DNA of 17,899 nt from NCBI GenBank assembly GCA_016758965.1, contig JAEPRB010000485.1, positions 1 through 17,899 of the forward strand. The letters are read 5' to 3'. The notes beneath the pieces are model-generated. The model did not search any database and had not been told where the DNA came from. It saw only the letters and a program-made list of their open reading frames with translations. This DNA comes from Circinella minor (lineage: Eukaryota > Mucoromycota > Mucoromycetes > Mucorales > Lichtheimiaceae). The translations under genes and the position numbers were made by a program. Below, piece by piece: positions 2,636-16,890 of this stretch (position 1 is the first letter of the stretch; every line of letters starts with the position of its first letter).

Positions 2636-2637
2636 TA
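2636..2637. other. Left TA target duplication
   Basis: TA immediately outside CAGGATTTTTCC, matched by TA at 10417-10418 outside the right end. A dinucleotide alone is weak evidence; the value lies in its placement at both ends of the inverted repeat. Confidence 0.5.
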
Positions 2638-3054
2638 CAGGATTTTTCCTAATGATTGGCGGGGGGGTTTTTTCCATCATGGCAGGGCCTTTTTTTATTT
2701 TGGCATTGGGGGGTCTTTTTTGATTGGCGGTGGAATTTTCATAATTGGCAGGAGGTGAAAAATTACAATGACGCCTGTAATTTTAAGTTGATGGCAGAAT
2801 TACAAATTTCATGGTGGTTGGGAACTGTGATTTCAATCCCTTATTAAAACTATTTTCTGTAGCTTTCTTATTATTTTTATGTTGTAAATTGTATAATTTA
2901 TTAAAAAAAACATATTTAAATATGAAAAAAAGTATGAAAAAAATAATAATATGAAGATAATAATAATATAAAGATAAAAATAATAATAATAATATGAAAA
3001 AAAATAATGATATGAAAAAAATAAAGGTAAAAACAAAAACTATAACGTTCCCTC
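2638..3054 (-). repeat. Left inverted arm (TIR plus transposase 3' flank)
   Basis: Starts with the TIR, then a short G-rich minisatellite built on TGATTGGCGG / TTGGCAGG units (about 2650-2755), a unique stretch, and an AT microsatellite (about 2880-3020). It is nearly identical, inverted, to 9962-10416; differences by eye are scattered substitutions and microsatellite length. It directly abuts the stop codon of the left transposase. Confidence 0.85.
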
Positions 3055-3896
3055 TTATTCCATGACGGCAAGCAAATGCTTAATCCACCTTTGACAATCT
3101 TGGGCAGAAATTTGATTGACTGAATCGGTTACTCTTAGTAGTAATGTATCAACTGTTGGCAACTTTCTATTTACACTGACGTTCAGCTTCAACCAGAATT
3201 CTTGCATGGGATTCAAGAAGGGCCGATGCTGAGGAAGATACATTATGTGGAAGCCTTGTTTTATAATAGCCTCCTGAAATTCTTGGGTTTTATGGATTGG
3301 TGCATTATCCATAACTAAGGTTCTTTCACCCATTCCATTTTCCTTGAGCACCTTCATCAGCACCTCCAGGGACCCAACATACTTGTCTTTAATACTACTA
3401 ATTTTTGGTTGCATTCTTTTGGCACTTAGACTAACAACTCCTTCACCAGTAATACCACCCAAGAACGTGAAGATGCGATCACAAGACATTGGGATTCTTG
3501 CCTTAGCAGAAGAACCTCTTGCTCGACGCGTGGGGTGTATGTTGAAACAAGCTTCATCTATAAAGACACACTTATAATAGTCAATACCGTTGATCATAAC
3601 AGATGGATTCTTTGATTTAGATATAGAAGTTTCCTATTAAGTTATCAACTATTAGTTAATAAAAGTTTGAAATACAAGCCAAAATTCATAAAGAGTTATC
3701 AATCATAAATAAGTAAAAAATGAAGTGCCTGCTGTTTATTTTTTACCTTGACCATTGATAAAAGTGGCTGTACACCAATGGTAACTCCACTGTATTCATT
3801 GGATATACTGGGATAGATATCATCCACTTCCATCTTGTCTTCATGCATATCAATGTCTGCATTATATGATAGTCTTGAGCTCTCAATATATGACAT
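3055..3896 (-). CDS. Tc1/mariner-type transposase, left copy: open but internally deleted and lacking the catalytic Glu
   Basis: Exon 1 (3896-3729, 56 codons) encodes an acidic N-terminus with HEDKMEVDDIY. Exon 2 (3633-3055) encodes the DDE core: FIDEACFN (first Asp), GGITGEG, VMDNAPIH (second Asp), then PFLNPMQEFW. Exon 1 has exactly the length of exon 1 in the right copy, and the intron position matches. Relative to the right copy about 640 bp is missing just inside exon 2, removing the AT-hook and HTH DNA-binding half. At the third catalytic position (34 residues after Asp2) the codon is CAA, Gln, instead of Glu. The intron uses a GC donor (CAG|GCACTT, 3728) with AG acceptor at 3634. With that splice the 248-residue frame has no stop. 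It cannot be an active transposase as read; a regulatory role is only a possibility. TATAAAA lies about 65 bp upstream. Confidence 0.72.
3634..3728 (-). other. Intron of the left transposase, GC-AG type
   Basis: Donor CAG|GCACTT and acceptor TTAATAG|GAA, 95 bp. The right copy has CAG|GTATTT at the equivalent place, so the donor T has become C. GC donors are spliced at lower efficiency in fungi. Confidence 0.6.
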
Positions 3897-3960
3897 GGTA
3901 CTTGTAGGTTTAAAAAATTGAATAAAAATGTAAGCAGAAGTTGCAGTAGATAAACAGCTC

Positions 3961-3967
3961 TTTTATA
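3961..3967 (-). promoter_or_regulatory. TATA box of the left transposase
   Basis: TATAAAA on the minus strand, about 65 bp before the ATG at 3896. The right transposase has TATAAAAA at the equivalent place (8341-8348), about 66-73 bp before its ATG. Confidence 0.55.
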
Positions 3968-4010
3968 TTCTTTTTTTTCCGAGCATCATAGTTTAAATAA
4001 TATTTAAGTT

Positions 4011-4086
4011 GGTTACACGGAACACCCTTATTTAATATTTTTATCACACATAAAAAAAGGGCCTTAGAAGTTGGTTACATGGAACG
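4011..4086 (-). promoter_or_regulatory. Pair of TGTTCCRTGTAACC-type motifs upstream of the left transposase
   Basis: On the minus strand, GTGTTCCGTGTAACCAACTT (ending 4025) and GCGTTCCATGTAACCAACTT (ending about 4087) are about 60 bp apart, both oriented toward the transposase. Between them is a T-run and ATGTGTGATAA. The right transposase has the same arrangement at 8228-8290. Confidence 0.7.
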
Positions 4087-4180
4087 CTCCACATAAATAA
4101 TATATAAACATATTTTATTTAAAAAGTGTGAGAGATATATTGGAACTTTAGTTATATACTATCAAAAGAATCTCTTTAAA

Positions 4181-4522
4181 CTAAGCTACCAAAAATGACC
4201 ACAACCCTCTTATTATTAAAAGACGGCTCAATCTAATGCTGATTTCTTCATGTGGTCTGCACCCATTAATACACAGACGGCTTTCCAGAAGATGGAAGGC
4301 CCAACCAATTTTATTCCACTCGGCTAAAACTTGACAAATAGCTCTTCTTGACACATTGAACCTTACAGAAATGACATCCTTTGATTCCCGTGCTTGAAAA
4401 TACATTTGAGCTATTTGCTCTTTTATATCCACAGACAGCTTGACTCATTGTCGTCTTTGAATCTCATCATATAGCTCCCATCCTTCTACTTCAATTAGGT
4501 GTATATGATTTTGATGAAGCAT
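4181..4522 (-). pseudogene. Small helix-turn-helix protein, interrupted by one stop
   Basis: From ATG 4522-4520 the frame reads an N-terminal segment ending DEIQRRQ, meets TGA at 4445-4447, and continues in the same frame with VKLSVDIKEQIAQMY and RFNVSRRAICQVLAEWNK. The latter has the spacing of a homeodomain-like/Tc1-type HTH (helix, turn at FNVS, recognition helix RRAICQVL). No DDE domain follows within the 113-codon frame. CGA-to-TGA (giving RRQR) would explain the stop. It resembles the HTH segments of the genes at 5383-5782 and 7488-8006 in layout more than in sequence. An eroded transposase N-terminus is equally possible. Confidence 0.5.
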
Positions 4523-4599
4523 CAATGCACAATCAAGATTTGTTTGAACACATTCTATAAACAAGAGCTATTGTTAACAAAAGAAGATCGGTGATATTA

Positions 4600-5141
4600 G
4601 AGCACTCACAACGGTCCTTGTAAAAAAAGCTTGTAACTCCGTTTACCAGCTTTTTTACAAATTTATGCTCGCAACGGTCCTTGTAAAAAAGCTTGCAAAA
4701 TGCAAAGCTTGTAAATTTTTTAAGAAAGCTTGTAAAATTACAAGGAGCGTTTGAGTGCTTGTAAAAAAAATTTATCACTTTCCATTTTTAATAAGAATGA
4801 CTAATAACAGCATTACTGCTAATACTACTTCCACTTTGGTTTCTACCAATGAACCAACCATCGTGACAACTTGTTGAGCGATTTGATTAAAGGCGTTGAT
4901 GATAGTAGGATCCATTTGAAATTGATTGAAAAGAGATTAAGCTCAAAATAATACTCAACCCTGAGCCTATTTTTTTCACTTGCTTTCACTGAAGTATGAT
5001 TTTCACGTTACACTTCCAAGTTACAAGCTAATTTTACAAGGACCATTGTGAGTATTTGCCTTGTAGTGTTACAAAAATTTTACAAGTCTCAATTTACAAG
5101 CTTTTTTTTTACAAGGACTGCTGCTACTGCTGCGAGTGCTC
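4600..5141. mobile_element. Harbinger-type MITE (542 bp) with perfect TTA target duplications
   Basis: Left end TTA|GAGCACTCACAACGGTCC and right end ...TGCGAGTGCTC|TTA are inverted (GAGCACTC/GAGTGCTC exact; GTCCTTGTAAAAAAA recurs inverted at the right end), flanked by TTA at 4597-4599 and 5142-5144. A 3-bp TWA duplication and GAGC-type ends are hallmarks of the PIF/Harbinger superfamily. The terminal regions carry many short copies of CTTGTAA/TTACAAG, typical subterminal repeats. No transposase is present, so it is non-autonomous; the DDE of a partner element is not in this window. It inserted into the larger element and is therefore younger than it. Confidence 0.85.
4775..4915 (-). CDS. 46-codon open frame inside the MITE
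   Basis: ATG at 4915-4913, TGA at 4775-4777. It starts MDPTIINAFNQIAQQVV and ends in a hydrophobic stretch (VVLAVMLLLVILI). It may be the eroded N-terminus of a protein of the parent Harbinger element, or chance. No motif is recognised. Confidence 0.25.
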   Translation of the reverse strand: MDPTIINAFNQIAQQVVTMVGSLVETKVEVVLAVMLLLVILIKNGK

Positions 5142-5382
5142 TTAGCAATAACACACCTTTTATTAGAAGAATCGCAATAATGAAATCTGTGCGAACATAT
5201 AAGTATGGCATTTGAAAAATGAATAAAATAATCCTTGCCATTGCAAATGTGTTGCTTTTATACTTTTTTATGATTGAACCCATAATGTAACACAAACGGA
5301 ATCTCACAGATCCTACTCACGACACATATATATCCTTATCCATTCTCAAGACAAATCAAAACCAAAATATTTGTAATTATTT

Positions 5383-5782
5383 TTATAAAGTAATATTATT
5401 TATTTCACGGTTAATACGTTCTTGGGCAATGTATGTCCCCACAGTAGCTAGAGGAATTCTGGTTATCTCAATGACATCACGGACTGAGAGGTGTTCGTCG
5501 AAATGAAGATAAAAAATCTCCTCCCGTTCTTGTTCCGTGACGCGTTGTCTCGGTTTCCTTGGTGCATGTCGGACAGGTGGGCCTACTAAAAAAATGGTTT
5601 TCTCTTATAAGCATTCCACATTTATATAGAATATTCTCAAACTTACCAAGTGTTGTGTCAAGTAGGATAAGGGTTTGCACCCACTCGTCAAGAGCGCTTT
5701 GGGTGTCAAGAGCGCTTTGGGTGTCAAGAGCGCTTTGGGTGTCAAAAGCATTAGCTTCATTAAAGTTCGAATTGGAATTCAT
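5383..5782 (-). CDS. Intact small helix-turn-helix protein (112 aa, two exons)
   Basis: Exon 1 (5782-5647) and exon 2 (5585-5383) join across a 61-bp intron with donor G|GTAAGT and acceptor TTTTTTTAG|TA, giving 112 residues with no internal stop. The N-terminus is Asn/Ser-rich, followed by three perfect DTQSAL repeats and an acidic/hydrophobic segment (DEWVQTLILLDTTL). Exon 2 begins with a basic patch (RHAPRKPRQR) and then an HTH: TEQEREEIFYLHFDEHLSVRD leading to VIEITRIPLATVGTYIAQER, with helix 2, turn and recognition helix as in Tc1-type/homeodomain-like folds. It has no catalytic domain, so a DNA-binding regulator of the element is the natural inference. I chose ATG 5782; an in-frame ATG at 5830 would add 16 residues. 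It is one of only two unbroken multi-motif genes inside the element. Confidence 0.68.
5586..5646 (-). other. Intron of the small HTH gene
   Basis: GTAAGT donor and TTTTTTTAG acceptor, 61 bp, phase 1. Its removal keeps the frame open to TAA at 5383-5385 and joins the repeat-bearing N-terminus to the HTH domain. Confidence 0.75.
5687..5740 (-). repeat. Three perfect 18-bp tandem repeats in coding sequence
   Basis: The unit GTCAAGAGCGCTTTGGGT (plus strand) is repeated three times without mismatch and encodes DTQSAL three times. The lack of divergence means recent expansion. Confidence 0.9.
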
Positions 5783-5830
5783 TATGTAGAAAGTTTCGTT
5801 GTTAATTGTTAATAAAAGAAATGTGTTCAC

Positions 5831-6166
5831 CTGAATAATCAGTCCCCATCTGTTAAATAGTTTTCACCACGATCTTCTCACCTTCTTGAGCATCTTTTTT
5901 TTTATTTTGCAAACAATATTATTTGAGTACCATTTTTTTTTATTTTGTAAACAACATAAATTATTCAGACCATATTGGAATAATTACTCAAATAAATAAA
6001 ATCAGAATCTTATTTACAGACACTTTGCATCTGCAAATCGTATTAAACCAAAGAATAACCTTTCTCTTTATCCATTTTGAGCTATAGACTTTCTATCCCT
6101 ATCTTTTGTTCAAATTGTCAGCACCAACCCGGTTATATCCTCTCTTTTGATGTTCCATGTCACATA
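5831..6166. promoter_or_regulatory. Intergenic region between the minus-strand HTH gene and the plus-strand stub
   Basis: AT-rich; contains two copies of a T-run followed by TATTTTGnAAACAA (about 5890 and 5935) and, at 6151-6163, TGTTCCATGTCAC, one mismatch from the motif found before the transposases. Otherwise nothing recognised. Confidence 0.4.
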
Positions 6167-6244
6167 ATGGCAAAAGAAAAGAGATCAAATGAGTATACCA
6201 ACGATTTAAAATGGCTTGTTCTGCGTAACAGTGCCACAAAATAG
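6167..6244 (+). pseudogene. 25-codon stub resembling the N-terminus of an HTH protein
   Basis: ATG follows the TGTTCC motif after only a few bases. The reading MAKEKRSNEYTNDLKWLVLR followed by NSATK and TAG resembles the first helix that precedes an HTH, but no HTH follows; downstream DNA is the 3' end of the convergent gene at 6268-6672. It is probably a truncated relic, or the first exon of something I cannot resolve. Confidence 0.3.
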
Positions 6245-6267
6245 ACTGACAAAAAGAAAGTATTTTT

Positions 6268-6672
6268 TTATTCATCAATATTAAGATAAATTTCTCTATA
6301 TTCTTGAGCCCATCGAAACATTGTTAATTTCGGGACCTCAGTTCTATTATACCCTTTTTTTTCAATTGCACATTGTCTTATAGCCTTCTTGAGTTCTTCA
6401 TTTTCCCTCTCCCACTTTGGTATTTTTTGCTTTTTGTATTCTGTTAGTTTCAGAACTTGCTGTTCTAGCTGCTGCACCCTTTCCAGAGTCTCTTGAAGAG
6501 CCAACTCACCAGGGAGCATGACCGATGGTTCATACTTTGTTCCCATTCGCTTTGCGTCTAGAACCCTAATAAATTCCTCTGTTTGAAGCATTAGAATAGC
6601 ATGTTTAAAAGCAATGCTAATAATCATACCAATAAGAGGATCTTTGCCATCACTAGAGTCGTATTTCATCAT
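6268..6672 (-). CDS. Intact 134-aa coiled-coil protein with a possible C-terminal HTH
   Basis: Open from ATG 6672 (a second ATG follows directly) to TAA. Three parts are visible: an N-terminal globular segment (MMKYDSSDGKDPLIGMIISIAF), a heptad-like Leu/Glu/Gln/Lys-rich stretch (about residues 57-100, ALQETLERVQQLEQQVLKLTEY) predicted as coiled coil, and a C-terminal basic helix pair ending VPKLTMFRWAQEY, which echoes the VPxSTLxRW recognition helix of Psq-type HTH domains. No family is recognised with certainty. It is single-exon and unbroken while its neighbours are decayed. Its 5' side faces the motif array at 6806-7327, with TTTATATAA about 85 bp upstream. Oligomerising DNA-binding protein is an inference from layout. 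Confidence 0.6.
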   Translation of the reverse strand: MMKYDSSDGKDPLIGMIISIAFKHAILMLQTEEFIRVLDAKRMGTKYEPSVMLPGELALQETLERVQQLEQQVLKLTEYKKQKIPKWERENEELKKAIRQCAIEKKGYNRTEVPKLTMFRWAQEYREIYLNIDE

Positions 6673-6805
6673 GACTTAGGGCAATCTTGTTCATTTGAGA
6701 ATATTATTTAAAAATAATAAAAAAGTATATAGTAAATCTCTGTAATTAATGTTATATAAAACAAAGAAAATTCTGAAGAAAAATACAAATACATATAACT
6801 AGAAC

Positions 6806-7190
6806 GTTATATGGAACAAATCATCCCATTCCACTCTAAGATGTCCCATGCTGTTTTTAGGTGAGTGCACGGTGAAGATCTAAAGTTAAATCTGTTGTAC
6901 GGAATAAAACAATAATCATTTTCATAAGAAAAGTACAGAAAGTAAATATTTAGAATTGTTACACAGAACAAAACAATAACCAGTTTCATAAGCAAGGATA
7001 CAAAAAGGGAATAATTAACTACTACATGGAACAAATCGTCCCATTCCACTCTAAGTTGTCCCATTCCGTTTTTAGGTGAGTGCATGGTGAAGATCTAAAG
7101 TTAAATTCGTTGCACGGAACAAAGCACTAATTAATTTCATAAGAAAAATACAGAAAGTAAATATTTGAGAATTAGTTCACGGAACAAACC
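6806..7190. repeat. Imperfect tandem duplication, period 215 bp
   Basis: GGAACAAAtcRTCCCATTCCACTCTAAG recurs at 6813 and 7028 and the similarity continues through TTTTTAGGTGAGTGCA, GTGAAGATCTAAAGTTAAA and TACAGAAAGTAAATATTT. Each unit carries three of the TGTTCC-type motifs. Confidence 0.85.
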
Positions 7191-7327
7191 AAGGATAAAT
7201 GTGAAAAACAATTACAAAGTAAAAATGCACAAACAAAATATTCAAAGCTGTTACTCATAAAAGAATTATAGTTTCTACTTGGGAAACCATCCTGAAGGTG
7301 GATAATTAGATTGTTGCACGGAACAGA
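6806..7327 (-). promoter_or_regulatory. Array of seven TGTTCCGTGnAAC-type motifs in a divergent promoter region
   Basis: Plus-strand forms: GTTATATGGAACAAA (6806), GTTGTACGGAATAAA (6894), GTTACACAGAACAAA (6958), CTACATGGAACAAA (7022), GTTGCACGGAACAAA (7109), GTTCACGGAACAAA (7175), GTTGCACGGAACAGA (7313). All have the same orientation, which on the minus strand reads TGTTCCRTGnAAC toward the gene at 6268-6672. The region separates that gene from the divergent gene starting at 7488, so it may serve both. Confidence 0.65.
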
Positions 7328-7394
7328 AAAAAATGCAATCTTGTTATTATGTACATATGCTCAATTTATATATCTTTGAGCCGTATCAAAAAAG

Positions 7395-7405
7395 TATATA
7401 AAGGG
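7395..7405 (+). promoter_or_regulatory. TATA box of the gene starting at 7488
   Basis: TATATAAAGGG, about 90 bp upstream of the ATG, a position comparable to the TATA boxes of both transposases in this element. Confidence 0.5.
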
Positions 7406-7487
7406 TAACCGATAGATACGTTCATGGTAATAATTTGAAAATTCTAAATTTACGTACACATAACAAAATCAATTACTTACTAGCAAT

Positions 7488-7668
7488 ATGGCCGATGATC
7501 TCCTCGAATTTGAAGAAGATGTATCTATGGAGGACGATGTATATAGTACAAGAGAATTAAGCAACGCACTTCCTTATGTAGATTTTGTGGAGAACTCCCC
7601 CTTGTTCTCCCCCTCATCAGCATCAGCATCAGCATCAACACCATCATCATCATCATCATTGTTCTCAC

Positions 7669-7717
<49 letters not shown>

Positions 7718-8006
7718 GCCACCATTACAGCCAATAAGGGGACGACACAATAGAAGGACATGCCACAATTATGCCTAAGAAGATGTGATTGCTGTTTTGA
7801 AGGCCCATTTTTATGACAGGCTTCATGTTGATGAAGTTGGTGCAAGAGTAGGCATGCCGAAAACTATAGCGGCAAAGTTGATCAGAACTTATCGTCCCCA
7901 AATGTCGGCACCACCCCCACCACCCCAGTCACAGGCTCGCGCTCCTCGGCAAAGCTTTATCAGTAGAGTCGACAGTGATGTATTGGCAGCCGCTTTACAG
8001 CGATAG
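7488..8006 (+). pseudogene. Serine-rich small helix-turn-helix protein, interrupted by one TAA
   Basis: From ATG 7488 the frame encodes an acidic N-terminus (FEEDVSMEDDVYSTRELSN), a long serine tract from a TCA/CAT microsatellite (about 7616-7713), and a basic patch (RGRHNRRTCHNYA). TAA at 7776-7778 interrupts; the same frame continues with EDVIAVLKAHFYDRLHVDE and VGARVGMPKTIAAKLIRTYR, a clear HTH layout, then a proline/glutamine tail to TAG at 8004-8006. CAA-to-TAA would account for the break. The order low-complexity N-terminus, basic patch, HTH equals that of the intact gene at 5383-5782. The EED...MEDDVY segment resembles MEVDDMY in exon 1 of the transposases, hinting at descent from a transposase N-terminus. 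No catalytic domain is present. Confidence 0.6.
7616..7713 (+). repeat. TCA trinucleotide microsatellite encoding polyserine
   Basis: Runs of TCA/GCATCA, interrupted once by TTGTTCTCACCA. The antisense poly-Asp and poly-Met frames are shadows of it. Confidence 0.95.
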
Positions 8007-8227
8007 TTTTTTTTATTATTAATAAAAAATGTTATACTATTGCTTGTTTAATTCACATTTATTTTCTTTAACAATCACATATAATACTTATGAGTTCTTT
8101 ATAAAAAATAAGAATTGATTATTACATCATATGTCTTTAATTAAAAATTGGTGTGTAAATGTCTAGCTTTTTTTTGTGGGTGATAAAAAAAATAATTAAA
8201 AAGAACTATATACTTGCTTCCCTTGGG

Positions 8228-8290
8228 GTGTTCCGTGTAACCAACTTTTTTATGTGTGTGATAATTAGCATGTTCCATGTAACCAACTTG
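8228..8290 (+). promoter_or_regulatory. Pair of TGTTCCRTGTAACCAACTT motifs upstream of the right transposase
   Basis: GTGTTCCGTGTAACCAACTT at 8228-8247 and TGTTCCATGTAACCAACTT at 8271-8289, separated by ATGTGTGTGATAATTAG. The copies and the spacer sequence mirror the left pair at 4011-4086, with the same orientation relative to the transposase. Confidence 0.75.
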
Positions 8291-8340
8291 AACATTATGC
8301 AAAATAATCTAAATAGTCTCTGATGAACAAAAAAAAACAG

Positions 8341-8348
8341 TATAAAAA
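8341..8348 (+). promoter_or_regulatory. TATA box of the right transposase
   Basis: TATAAAAA followed by CAGAACTGTTTATCTATTGCA, the counterpart of the left promoter (AGAGCTGTTTATCTACTGCA). ATG lies at 8414. Confidence 0.55.
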
Positions 8349-8413
8349 CAGAACTGTTTATCTATTGCACTTCTGCTTACATTCTATTCAATTTTTTTTA
8401 ATTACCAATTACC

Positions 8414-9961
8414 ATGCTATCTATCAAAAGTTTACTACTACCCTATGATACCAATGTTGATATGTACGAAGATGAGATGGAAGTGGATGATATGTATCAA
8501 ATTGTATCTGATGAATGCCACAACTTTACTAGTAGTGTTCAATCTTTGGTATCCATGAAAAAAATCAAATATACACCACAGGTATTTAATGAAGTATGGT
8601 TTTGAAATCCAAATTTGACTTGTATTCCACTATTTTTAATAACTCACGGTTGATAATTACAGTAAACATCCACATCCAAATTAATGGATTCTCAAAGCTC
8701 CAACTCCTCCAACTCCTCCAATACTTCCGTCACTGCTCAAAATGTAACAGAACCGGTGAAAAAGGCCAGGGGAAGACCTCGCAAAACCCTTCAGCAAGAA
8801 ACTACCATTGTCCCAAAAAGTATGTTATCCAATATTATTAAACCTTCAATCCCTTCTGTGTCTAACTCGAAATTCGTAAATCATATAGGAGCTCATCGAG
8901 TATATCGAGATCCTGAAATCATCCAACTGATCGACAGGATCCAAAACATCACCTCAAATGCTACAGAAGCTAGACGTGACCTTTTGATACCTGAGAAAAC
9001 CACTCAGCGATATTAGAAGCGATTCGTTGACGGTGAACCGTACCTTCCCAGTACAATAGGTAAGTCTCCTGGACCACCACCAACTTTACAACTGAAGCAT
9101 ACTGCATTCCTACAGGCGTATTATGACACTAAGTCAGACGCGACCCTAAAAGAAGCACAGCAATCACTTGTTGAGAAATTTGGTATTAGCATCACCCAAA
9201 GTGGGCTCTAAAAGCATCTCGTCAGCAAGTGTGGGCTTACTGTGAAGAAGCGGGAACGGATCTCGGAGTACTGAAACTCTGATGAAACAATCGCCTCAAG
9301 GATGAACTGGGCACAGGCATTTGAATTCAGTGGCATTGATTACTACAAATGCATCTTTATCGATGAAGCTGGATTTAACATGCATATCAAACGTAATTTT
9401 GGTCACTCGAAACGAGGTACTCCGGCCAAGGCTTTGGTTTCGAAGTCGCGTGGGGTTAATATGACTATCATAGGTGGAATCACTGGTGAGGGTATTGTCA
9501 ACCTGAGTCTTTGAAAACCACATGCAGTTGTTGCCTCCAAGAAATGCAAACTCCGCAGTGGTGAGGAAAACGTTGTGGGTAAAATTGGTACACGCGCGGA
9601 ACACTATATTGAATTCTTGGAGGTCCTTATGGGAGTCTTAAAGGAAAATAGGATAGATGGAAGAACCCTAATCATGGATAATGCATCTATCCACAAGACA
9701 CCCAAAGTGTTGGAGGCAGTAAGAAAACAAGGATTTGAAATACTATATCTTCCTCCATATTCGCCCTTCCTCAACCTGATCGAAGAATTTTGGTCAAAGT
9801 TGAAGGCTGGTGTCAAATGCCATTTGTTGACTTCTGATGACACTTTGTTGCTAAGGATCATTAACTCAGCCAACCAAGTCACTGCTCAAGATTGCCAGGG
9901 TTGGATCAGGCACTCTCTTTCTTTTGTGCCTCGTTATATCAATGGAGAGAAAATGTTGTAA
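8414..9961 (+). pseudogene. Tc1/mariner-type transposase, right copy: full length, DD34E, broken by five in-frame stops
   Basis: Exon 1 (8414-8581) encodes an acidic N-terminus (EDEMEVDDMY). The intron 8582-8662 (GTATTT...TTACAG) leads to exon 2 (8663-9961), 488 codons in all. Exon 2 carries an AT-hook (KKARGRPRKTL), HTH-type segments (EAQQSLVEKFGIS, GLxKHLVSKCG), then the DDE core: FIDEAGFNMH, LIMDNASIH and PFLNLIEEFWSKLK. Thirty-four residues separate Asp2 from Glu, the Tc1/mariner DD34E pattern. The same frame contains TAA 8663-8665, TAG 9014-9016, TAA 9209-9211, TGA 9272-9274 and TGA 9512-9514, with no frameshift. At the first of these the left copy has GAA. The catalytic residues are intact, so decay is by nonsense changes only. 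It is too long and too regular to be anything but a former transposase. Confidence 0.85.
8582..8662 (+). other. Intron of the right transposase
   Basis: CAG|GTATTT donor and ATTACAG acceptor, 81 bp, phase 0, at the same codon as in the left copy. Confidence 0.65.
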
Positions 9962-10416
9962 TTCTTTTTTTTTTATATTATATCTCGATATTTCTTCTGT
10001 CTTTATATTTTTTTTATCTTTATATTTTTATCTTGATCATATCATTATTTTTTTTCATATTATTATTTTTATTTTTATCTTTATATTATTATTATCTTTA
10101 TATTATTATTTTTTTCATATTTTTTTTCATATTTAAATATGTTTTTTTTTAATAAATTATAAAATTTACAACATAAAAATAATAAGAAAGCTACAGAAAA
10201 TAGTTTTAATAAGGGATTGAAATCACAGTTCCCAACCGCCATGAAATTTGTAATTCTGCCATCAACTTAAAATTACAGGCATCATTGTAATTTTTCACCT
10301 CCTGCCAATCATGAAAATTCCACCGCCAATCAAAAAAGACCCCCCAACGCCAAAATGAAAAAAAGGCCCCGCTATGATGGGAAAAAACCCCCCATCAATC
10401 ATTAGGAAAAATCCGG
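9962..10416 (+). repeat. Right inverted arm (transposase 3' flank plus TIR)
   Basis: Inverted copy of 2638-3054: AT microsatellite, the block ending in GGGATTGAAATCACAGTTCCCA, the TTGGCGG/TTGGCAGG minisatellite in reverse, and terminal GGAAAAATCCGG followed by TA. It is some 40 bp longer than the left arm because of microsatellite length. Confidence 0.85.
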
Positions 10417-10427
10417 TATTCTCAAAG

Positions 10428-10882: not shown

Positions 10883-11501
10883 CATCCGCTTATTTGTTCT
10901 CAGTTGAGTTTGAAATTTTTGCTATGTAAAAAAAAAGTTATAGTGTGTAAAAAAATAATACTTTCCCCCCCTTTTTTTTTACATAAACATCATCACAAAC
11001 AGATAACCGTAAATATGATGGACGTACGTATAATGTGTATATGAATTCGTTAAAAGATGGAAACAAGCCGAAAGATCACAATTTACTGCTAGATGTCAAT
11101 GAACACAAAAAAAAAATACAAAAAAAAATGTAAATTAATAAAAAAAGGGCATGGAACAGTATTAAAGGAAAAACTTTTATACCTGGCAAGATGAAGGCAT
11201 CTGGTAAGAAACACAATTGTTTTTGATTCATCACATATGTAGAAATATAAGGAAGGGTTCTAATGAGAGTTTCCATCGGGATGGAATATAAATGAATGTA
11301 TAATATATTATTTTACTATATATTCTAACTTTTAATAATATTATGCGCTCTTTTTTTTCTTTTTTTTTGTATATATATATGTACCCGTTCACCTAAAAAC
11401 AAACGATTTAGTGTTCCATCTTCTTCAATAGCTAGACGAATTATTATTTTAGGTATATATAAAAACAGAATCTATAAAGTAAAAAAAAATGGGCTTGATA
11501 T
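10883..11501. repeat. Left TIR of the MULE
   Basis: Nearly identical in inverted orientation to 15311-15926, up to GGGCTTGATAT at the inner edge. It contains homopolymer runs and the block CACCTAAAAACAAACGATTTAGTGTTCC. A 66-codon frame at 11076-11276 (minus) occurs identically in the other TIR. Confidence 0.9.
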
Positions 11502-15310: not shown

Positions 15311-15926
15311 ATCAAGTCCCTTTTTTTTGCTTTATAGATTCTGTTTTTATATTTACCTAAAATAATAATTTGTCTAGCTATTGAAGAAGATGGAACATTA
15401 AATTGTTTGTTTTTAGGTGAACGGGTACATATATATATACAAAAAAAAAGAAAAAAAAGAGCGCATAATATTATTAAAAGTTAGAATATATAGTAAAATA
15501 ATATATTATACATTCATTTATATTCCATCCCGATGGAAACTCTCATTAGAACCCTTCCTTATATTTCTACATATGTGATGAATCAAAAACAATTGTGTTT
15601 CTTACCAGATGCCTTCATCTTGCCAGGTATAAAAGTTTTTCCTTTAATACTGTTCCATGCCCTTTTTTTATTAATTTACATTTTTTTTTGTATTTTTTTT
15701 TTGTGTTCATTGACATCTAGCAGTAAATTGTGATCTTTCGGCTTGTTTCCATCTTTTAACGAATTCATATACACATTATACGTACGTCCATCATATTTAC
15801 GGTTATCTGTTTGTGATGATGTTTATGTAAAAAAAAAGGGGGGGAAAGTATTATTTTTTTACACACTATAACTTTTTTTTTACATAGCAAAAATTTCAAA
15901 CTCAACTGAGAACAAATAAGTGGATG
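15311..15926. repeat. Right TIR of the MULE
   Basis: Inverted counterpart of 10883-11501, beginning ATCAAGTCCC and ending CAAATAAGTGGATG. The final bases run into the truncated Gypsy gag region at 15943. Confidence 0.9.
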
Positions 15927-15942
15927 TGCACAAACAACCCCT

Positions 15943-16890
15943 CTACTGATTGTGCATGGGCCGAAAATCCTGCTTGCCATGACGATTTTCTTGATTACGC
16001 TTTTTACAATCACGATGCATATGACCCCATTCACCACACTTAAAACATTTCACCCGATTACTACCATCGTTATACCGACTGTTATATAAACCACCACCGC
16101 TCGAGCCACCGTATTGATGATCCGCCGGCTTGATTGCATCAAGATCCATTGGAGTGGGACCTTGATTTACATAAGAGGACGACGGCTGACCAAAAGATTT
16201 ATTAAATGGAGAGAAATTTGTGGGACGTCTATTAGCAACCTTCGCACATTGTTCCACTGTTTCATATGCTTCGGCATAAGCATATGCTTCTGATAATGAA
16301 AAAGGTTTCTGCATCAAAACTTGTAAATGGCACTGATACTTTAGACCTTGCACGAAATTAAATAACGCGTCCTTGGTGTCCATATCTGGCAACTCCGGCA
16401 TCAACGAACGAAATTCACGCACATACTGTTCAACGGTACTTGTTTGCTGGAGTTGCTGTAACCGCTGTCTTGCTAGTTGTTCCGCATTTGCTGACTTAAA
16501 TTCGTACTTGAACACATGCTTAAATTCGGACCACGTACTTGGAGTCGATGTCGTCATATCATACTCAACACCACGCCACTATGTAGCCGCACCATCACGT
16601 AATAACGTCACTGCAAATAACACCATTTGATGATCATCGATGTTTACAAATTCCACATATTTTTCTAATGAATACAACCATGCTTCTACCTGCTGGACCG
16701 TGTGCTCGCCATGAAACGTATCTGGTTGATGAGGACGAATGATCTTAGCCAAACTTTGTTGATCATCAGTATGTGCTGTAGGTCTTGTTGGTTGTGTACG
16801 TAAATTTGCGATTTGTTCTGCCTGTTGTTGTTGTTGCTGCATTATTTGTTGTAACGATTGAAGCATCGTCATAATTGTTTGCTGTTCCAT
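15943..16890 (-). pseudogene. Ty3/Gypsy-type gag with CCHC zinc knuckle, one in-frame stop
   Basis: ATG at 16890-16888 opens a Gln-rich N-terminus (MEQQTIMTMLQSLQQIMQQQ), then the retrotransposon gag domain: PDTFHGEHTVQQVEAWLYSLEK (split here by nothing), WSEFKHVFKYEF, RQRLQQLQQTSTVEQYVREF, FVQGLKY, and a nucleocapsid knuckle CFKCGEWGHMHRDC (C-x2-C-x4-H-x4-C). TAG at 16579-16581 interrupts it at the position where the family has a Trp pair (DGAAT-stop-WRG), so TGG-to-TAG is likely. The frame ends at TAG 15943-15945 after HNQ, 17 bp from the MULE TIR. Protease, reverse transcriptase and integrase are absent from the window, so pol was lost or lies elsewhere. Confidence 0.85.

Follow-up and report, generated by a model that had tools for sequence, protein, structure and literature searches.

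The stretch analysed here (the window) is the entire 17,899-bp contig C485 of the 46.6-Mb, 619-contig assembly of Circinella minor, and its positions 2638–10416 hold a single copy of a Tc1/mariner-type (DD34E) element that is repeated in the genome. Two transposase genes with DDE domains, TpA and TpB, occupy the two ends of the element and both point outward, while four small genes, H1, H2, CC and H4, lie between them, giving the order TpA(−), H1(−), H2(−), CC(−), H4(+), TpB(+). All six genes, in identical order and orientation, were found in three two-ended copies, namely the window copy, C297 and C316, the last of which has moved as a unit.

Ends and gene content of the window copy

The initial annotation had placed TA-flanked terminal inverted repeats (TIRs) at both ends of this segment, and this was confirmed: a TA stands outside each end, the left and right TIRs are 94.2% identical over 400 aligned columns, and the terminal sequences are CAGGATTTTTCC on the left and CCGGATTTTTCC on the right. 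The left TIR matches at least 43 places in the genome, and the TIRs of the window are therefore not a chance palindrome. The element thus has the TA target-site duplication of Tc1/mariner elements, but not the single gene and 1–2 kb size that are typical of them (though not strictly defining), as it measures 7.2–7.8 kb and contains six genes.

The size of ~7.8 kb first attributed to the element is correct for the window copy; however, a nested 542-bp insertion, located within the H1 intron and with TTA on both sides, had been overlooked, and the native length is ~7.2 kb. Both outer genes gave DDE_3 matches (left gene, E = 1.6e-14; right gene, in two pieces, E = 2.2e-4 and 1.2e-19). The earlier description of an outward-facing DDE transposase at each end was therefore right as to domain and direction, but the two genes are not equivalent, since the left one has no AT-hook/helix-turn-helix (HTH) half. 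The small HTH-like and coiled-coil genes that had been described in the centre are present. The window copy itself is decayed, with four stops in the main part of TpB and one each in H1 and H4. The features of this copy are listed in Table 1.

Table 1. Features of the element copy in the window (MITE, miniature inverted-repeat transposable element).
Feature	Position	Strand	Basis or remark
Left TA target-site copy	2636..2637		TA-flanked terminus; single TA at the C316 empty site
Left TIR, ~396 bp	2638..3033	+	Alignment with right TIR
Five TGGC boxes, 21–24 bp apart (2657, 2680, 2701, 2725, 2746)	2657..2756	+	
TpA exon 2, DDE catalytic domain, Glu to Gln (NPMQEF), no HTH	3055..3633	−	
TpA exon 1, acidic N-terminal module common with TpB	3747..3896	−	Splice model read from sequence
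H1 exon 2 (HTH protein), interrupted by one TGA in window copy	4184..4555	−	
Nested MITE-like insertion, TTA duplication, not native	4600..5141		542 bp, missing from C297
H1 exon 1	5158..5211	−	Match to Circinella umbellata P0131, residues 1–18
H2, HTH in C-terminal part	5395..5830	−	H2-family profile match to TpB HTH
CC, coiled-coil-type protein, stop at upstream end in window copy	6268..6724	−	
Six GTTRCACGGAACA-type motifs between CC and H4	6806..7325	+	
H4, acidic, Ser/Pro-rich and HTH protein, one TAA in window copy	7488..8006	+	
TpB exon 1, N-terminal module	8414..8581	+	Identical splicing in NCBI gene models for C316 and C297
Rest of TpB with AT-hook, two HTH regions and DD34E domain, interrupted by stops in window copy	8663..9961	+	
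Right TIR	10021..10416	−	Alignment with left TIR
Right TA target-site copy	10417..10418		TA-flanked terminus

Copies in the genome and movement as a unit

The proposal of a giant mariner-type element with accessory genes had come with the advice to look for other copies in which the outer TIRs and the order of the inner genes recur, and C297 and C316 are such copies. C297 is 7,225 bp long including both TAs, its main aligned pieces being 95–96% identical to the window copy, and C316 is 7,618 bp long, its right part being ~79% identical. The order is kept in part in C85, C409, C570, C1, C184, C478 and C582. TpA, H1, H2 and CC are retained in C409 and C570, H1 and H2 in C184 and C478, and H1 with part of TpA in C582; C1 is a decayed copy in which weak hits to H1, H2, CC, H4 and the start of TpB follow the element order. 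TpB is retained in C535 and C330. Both ends are present in C85, whose middle has 3,632 N; this locus was unreadable as a full copy, and the idea of a retrotransposon there was dropped.

Empty sites were sought by joining the flanks of seven TIR-bounded copies and comparing them with the same genome. The C316 flanks, joined by one TA, are continuous at C37 (296/300 columns identical), and further matches were obtained at C397 (255/257) and C569 (178/181), as well as at C56, where the match (158/166) stops ~14 bases beyond the junction. Given this exact single-TA empty site, one six-gene copy has moved as a unit, and the multi-gene Tc1/mariner element is real and mobile. An empty site had also been predicted for the window copy itself, but here the candidate, at C327, is only suggestive (222/289 columns identical, gapped, in a microsatellite). 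Of the seven copies, the others yielded no clear match spanning the junction.

Alternatively, two single-gene mariners inserted in opposite orientation could flank host genes, the block as a whole now being mobilised by its outermost ends. Such a composite would account for the pair of outward-facing transposase genes and for the inverted homology that reaches into the regions upstream of them (arms 3794–3941/8369–8516 and 3989–4032/8263–8306); moreover, the genome contains ordinary elements of ~1.88 kb, the nearest single-gene relatives C495, C158 and C471, which share the 12-bp end CAGGATTTTTCC. However, the two halves do not each keep a TIR pair of their own. No inner TIRs are present among the 25 longest of the 92 inverted-repeat pairs listed in a scan of the window, which agrees with the initial annotation in disfavouring two ordinary insertions, and no lone half with its own intact TIR pair was found among the loci fetched, the nearest case being at C213, where a decayed unit of 2.3 kb contains a single DDE fragment. 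A centre made of unique host DNA, which would equally have refuted the proposal of a giant element, is ruled out by searches of the same genome with the inner genes, as these are repeated with the element: 10 of the 11 H1 loci have another element gene in the fetched part (the exception is C500), and H4 occurs at 4 loci, of which C387 has H4 alone within the 5 kb fetched.

The layout is also common to diverged subfamilies and, from locus tags, to C. umbellata. In that species, the tags 566622 (H4) and 566623 (TpB) are consecutive, the H1 model of record P0138 continues into the TpA upstream region, and the H1 records group with both subfamilies, P0131 being nearest to C85 and the window copy and P0129 nearest to C316. 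As a description of the present state, two mariners around host DNA are rejected by the fixed gene order, the TpA clade described below and the empty site. We thus regard the composite as improbable, although it may still fit a remote origin of the element.

TpA and TpB

TpB was matched to DDE_3 with E = 1.4e-26 and has 34 residues between its second Asp and the Glu, as in the DD34E group. Its GT..AG intron occupies 8582–8662, and the NCBI gene models P0001 and P0002 (C316 and C297) likewise splice the N-terminal module to the remainder; NCBI models annotate one further intron. Pfam called no HTH on TpB with a query that started inside that region, and the HTH regions were read by eye and from the H4 and H2 profile matches. 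In TpA, a GT..AG intron at 3634–3746 (read from sequence, ends checked) joins the N-terminal module directly to the DDE domain.

The AT-hook/HTH half is missing from TpA in 6/6 TpA rows, which again disfavours the composite. These rows belong to a transposase tree of 22 rows, from which the second transposase at C471 (L035, 2664–3320) and hits covering 140 columns or fewer were left out. A single branch splits the 6 TpA rows from the 5 TpB rows (support 94/90; recovered in 98% of 200 bootstrap trees), indicating that the two-transposase layout is older than the two subfamilies, and the long-branched C213 fragment falls on the TpA side. On this tree, TpA is an old paralogue of TpB. The third catalytic residue is Glu in 115/115 alignable TpB relatives (120 listed, 5 with gaps), and Gln in TpA of the window copy, C297 and C85.

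Constraint and origin of the small proteins

The ratio of nonsynonymous to synonymous substitution rates (dN/dS) was calculated by the Nei-Gojobori method with 2000 codon bootstraps. Between C297 and C316, it is 0.08 for TpB, 0.24 for H4, 0.35 for TpA, 0.36 for H1 and 0.40 for CC. The value for H2 is 0.26 between C297 and C85, and 0.45 between C297 and C316, the latter on 50 codons with dS near-saturated. For each of the six genes, with H2 taken from the C297–C85 pair, only 0 or 1 of the 2000 bootstraps gave a ratio of at least 1. These ratios indicate that the six genes are constrained at the protein level between diverged copies.

In hhalign comparisons with the TpB region that holds its first HTH, the H4 profile matched with a probability of 95.8; the H2 profile gave a weaker match (57.6), and in both cases 0/60 column shuffles scored as high. 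These comparisons suggest that this transposase HTH is the source of H4, and probably of H2 as well. The same origin is not claimed for H1 and CC, whose profiles did not exceed shuffles against TpB (9/60 and 10/60 as high). H1 gave weak Pfam HTH matches below the cut-off. In the H4 structure model, confidence is restricted to a unit of three helices (residues 81–120), where the predicted local distance difference test score (pLDDT) is ~87–90. We also considered the N-terminus of H4 as a copy of the N-terminal module of TpA or TpB, which was unsupported (scores as high were reached by 55 and 829 shuffles in 1000). Protein searches retrieved 14 H1 records, including 1 from C. minor and 6 from C. 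umbellata, and 6 H4 records, including 2 from C. minor, 1 from C. umbellata and 2 from Zychaea mexicana, the H4 search having scored 7,981 best-sharing candidates.

These results bear on whether TpB and the TIRs alone matter, with H1, H2, CC, H4 and TpA kept by chance or serving the host. The constraint on TpB is indeed far above that on the remaining genes, and TIRs of the same family bound C99 (4.9 kb) and C125 (6.3 kb), which contain unrelated or no recognisable genes, so that the internal content can vary. However, dN/dS is well below 1 for the other five genes between diverged copies, the gene order is fixed, and H4 and H2 resemble derivatives of the transposase HTH rather than captured host genes. 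Passive carriage of the five genes consequently appears unlikely to us.

Repeated DNA signals

In the left TIR, the TGGC boxes lie at positions 22, 45, 66, 90 and 111. Similar box spacing, with gaps in some cases, was seen at the eight further ends that were inspected, and at least five TGGC boxes were obtained in 2/2000 mononucleotide shuffles of the window end.

A second signal, GTTRCACGGAACA, was counted 14 times in the window, every time within the element (chance mean 3.0; 0/200 shuffles reach 14), and 16 times at the C297 locus, 14 of them within the element (0/200 shuffles). C316 carries GTTACACTGGACA instead, with 11 matches, six of them between CC and H4 (0/200 shuffles); as both motifs were picked after inspecting the window and C316, these shuffle counts are flattering. 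In the window, other GTTRCACGGAACA copies stand upstream of TpA (4012, 4074) and upstream of TpB (8229, 8271). Matches were not significant in C85 (three GTTRCACGGAACA, reached by 16/200 shuffles) or in C409 (five GTTRCACGGAACA, 8/200; four of the GTTACACTGGACA form, 46/200).

It was also observed that the six GTTACACTGGACA copies between CC and H4 of C316 (L010 4241–5144) are arranged mirror-symmetrically, three on the plus and three on the minus strand.

Other elements with the same TIRs and neighbouring features

The elements at C99 (L012 1586–6518) and C125 (L013 1300–7602) are TA-flanked and have TIRs of the same family, no transposase, and unrelated open reading frames (ORFs), in which no Pfam family was found above the cut-off. 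For the one C99 cargo ORF tested, neither a second copy in the genome nor a host source was found. A 1,656-bp element at C98 (L014 1512–3167) has the same TIR family and no recognised gene; once joined, its flanks form one open frame.

Elsewhere in the window, a 606-bp inverted repeat (10883–11488 / 15321–15926, 99% complementary) encloses a Mutator-like (MULE-type) transposase gene, and one of its arms adjoins a Ty3-type gag gene (15943–16557). This repeat pair looks like long terminal repeat-type sequences in opposite orientation. A minus-strand ORF at 193–1101 has a DUF6729 domain (E = 1.8e-10).

Discussion

Tc1/mariner elements are the standard example of transposons with a single gene. 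The Circinella element is, in our view, likely to be a ~7.2-kb six-gene Tc1/mariner (IS630-type, DD34E) transposon that encodes DNA-binding proteins of its own along with a non-catalytic paralogue of its transposase. The whole element moves as one unit into TA, with TpB as the putative catalytic transposase. TpA, an ancient paralogue, retains the N-terminal module together with the catalytic fold but has lost the DNA-binding half, as well as, in the window subfamily, the catalytic glutamate, and it may partner or regulate TpB without itself being catalytic. H1, H2 and H4 are predicted to be small HTH proteins and CC a coiled-coil protein. These four may bind the TIR boxes spaced by ~22 bp, the motif repeated close to the genes, or both, and via such binding the element would control its own transcription and the assembly of its ends. 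The roles given here to TpA, H1, H2, CC and H4 are those that we infer from their sequences.

Several observations weigh against this interpretation. Between young copies, dN/dS exceeds 1 (window copy–C297: H1 4.94, CC 1.94, H2 1.30 and H4 1.22; C316–C570: TpA 1.24); these ratios rest on few changes and, as expected, fit decay after insertion, and they give no support to constraint. TpB has one stop in C297 and one in C316, and hence no fully intact copy has been seen. TpA of C316, C409 and C570 retains Glu. The H1 and CC profile results given above count on the same side, the H1 structure model is poor (mean pLDDT 54), and the H4 model had no Foldseek match in the PDB at E ≤ 0.001, its top rows being mostly HTH proteins. 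Finally, the single-gene relative C495 also has boxes (TTGCG at 22, 43, 66, 88 and 110); the array therefore predates the extra genes, and boxes alone do not require extra proteins. Regarding the retained Glu, it should be noted that in TpA of C316, C409 and C570 the stretch separating the first Asp region from the second has suffered deletions, and catalysis may thus have been lost by different routes, in these three copies by deletion.

Among known systems, the Tc1-MP1 type elements of Mucorales are described as 1,688 bp long with 141-bp TIRs and one ORF (PMC9977792). They resemble the present element in superfamily, TACA-type ends and a DDE transposase for which Circinella minor relatives are named (PMC9977792), whereas the present element has ~7.2 kb, ~400-bp TIRs, six genes and two transposase paralogues. 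The same paper presents the yeast Tc1-OP1, of 5,659 bp, as the largest Tc1/mariner reported; it is likewise a large fungal Tc1 with long TIRs (169 bp), whereas its one ORF encodes 1,155 aa and accessory genes do not figure in its description (PMC9977792). The ciliate TBE/Tec elements are likewise multi-gene Tc1/mariner elements, and the accessory ORFs of TBE are also reported to be under purifying selection (PMC4724952, PMC7325037). They have three ORFs, with a zinc-finger/kinase ORF in TBE and a site-specific recombinase in Tec (PMC4724952, PMC7325037). As far as these descriptions extend, they have neither the second transposase paralogue nor the HTH set of the Circinella element. Conversely, no Pfam match to a kinase/zinc-finger or tyrosine-type recombinase ORF was found among the element proteins scanned. 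En/Spm, MuDR and PIF/Harbinger, which belong to other superfamilies and are likened here by description only, combine a catalytic protein with one or more separate DNA-binding proteins. Searches of the open-licence literature listed no fungal Tc1/mariner element with six genes or with two transposases, and to that extent the present one is undescribed.

We further propose, tentatively and as the less probable case, that a Tc1/mariner transposase has here been split into a multi-protein machine, comprising a full TpB, a DDE-only non-catalytic partner and HTH-derived DNA-binding proteins, which would act on a phased box array and on operators that differ between subfamilies (GTTRCACGGAACA in the window copy and C297, GTTACACTGGACA in C316). 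A lineage of fungal elements with six conserved genes, among them a retained transposase paralogue that lacks the catalytic Glu and HTH proteins resembling parts of the transposase, would offer a natural example of transposition by one protein turning into a regulated multi-protein system, and the single-gene relatives in the same genome permit a comparison between the two.

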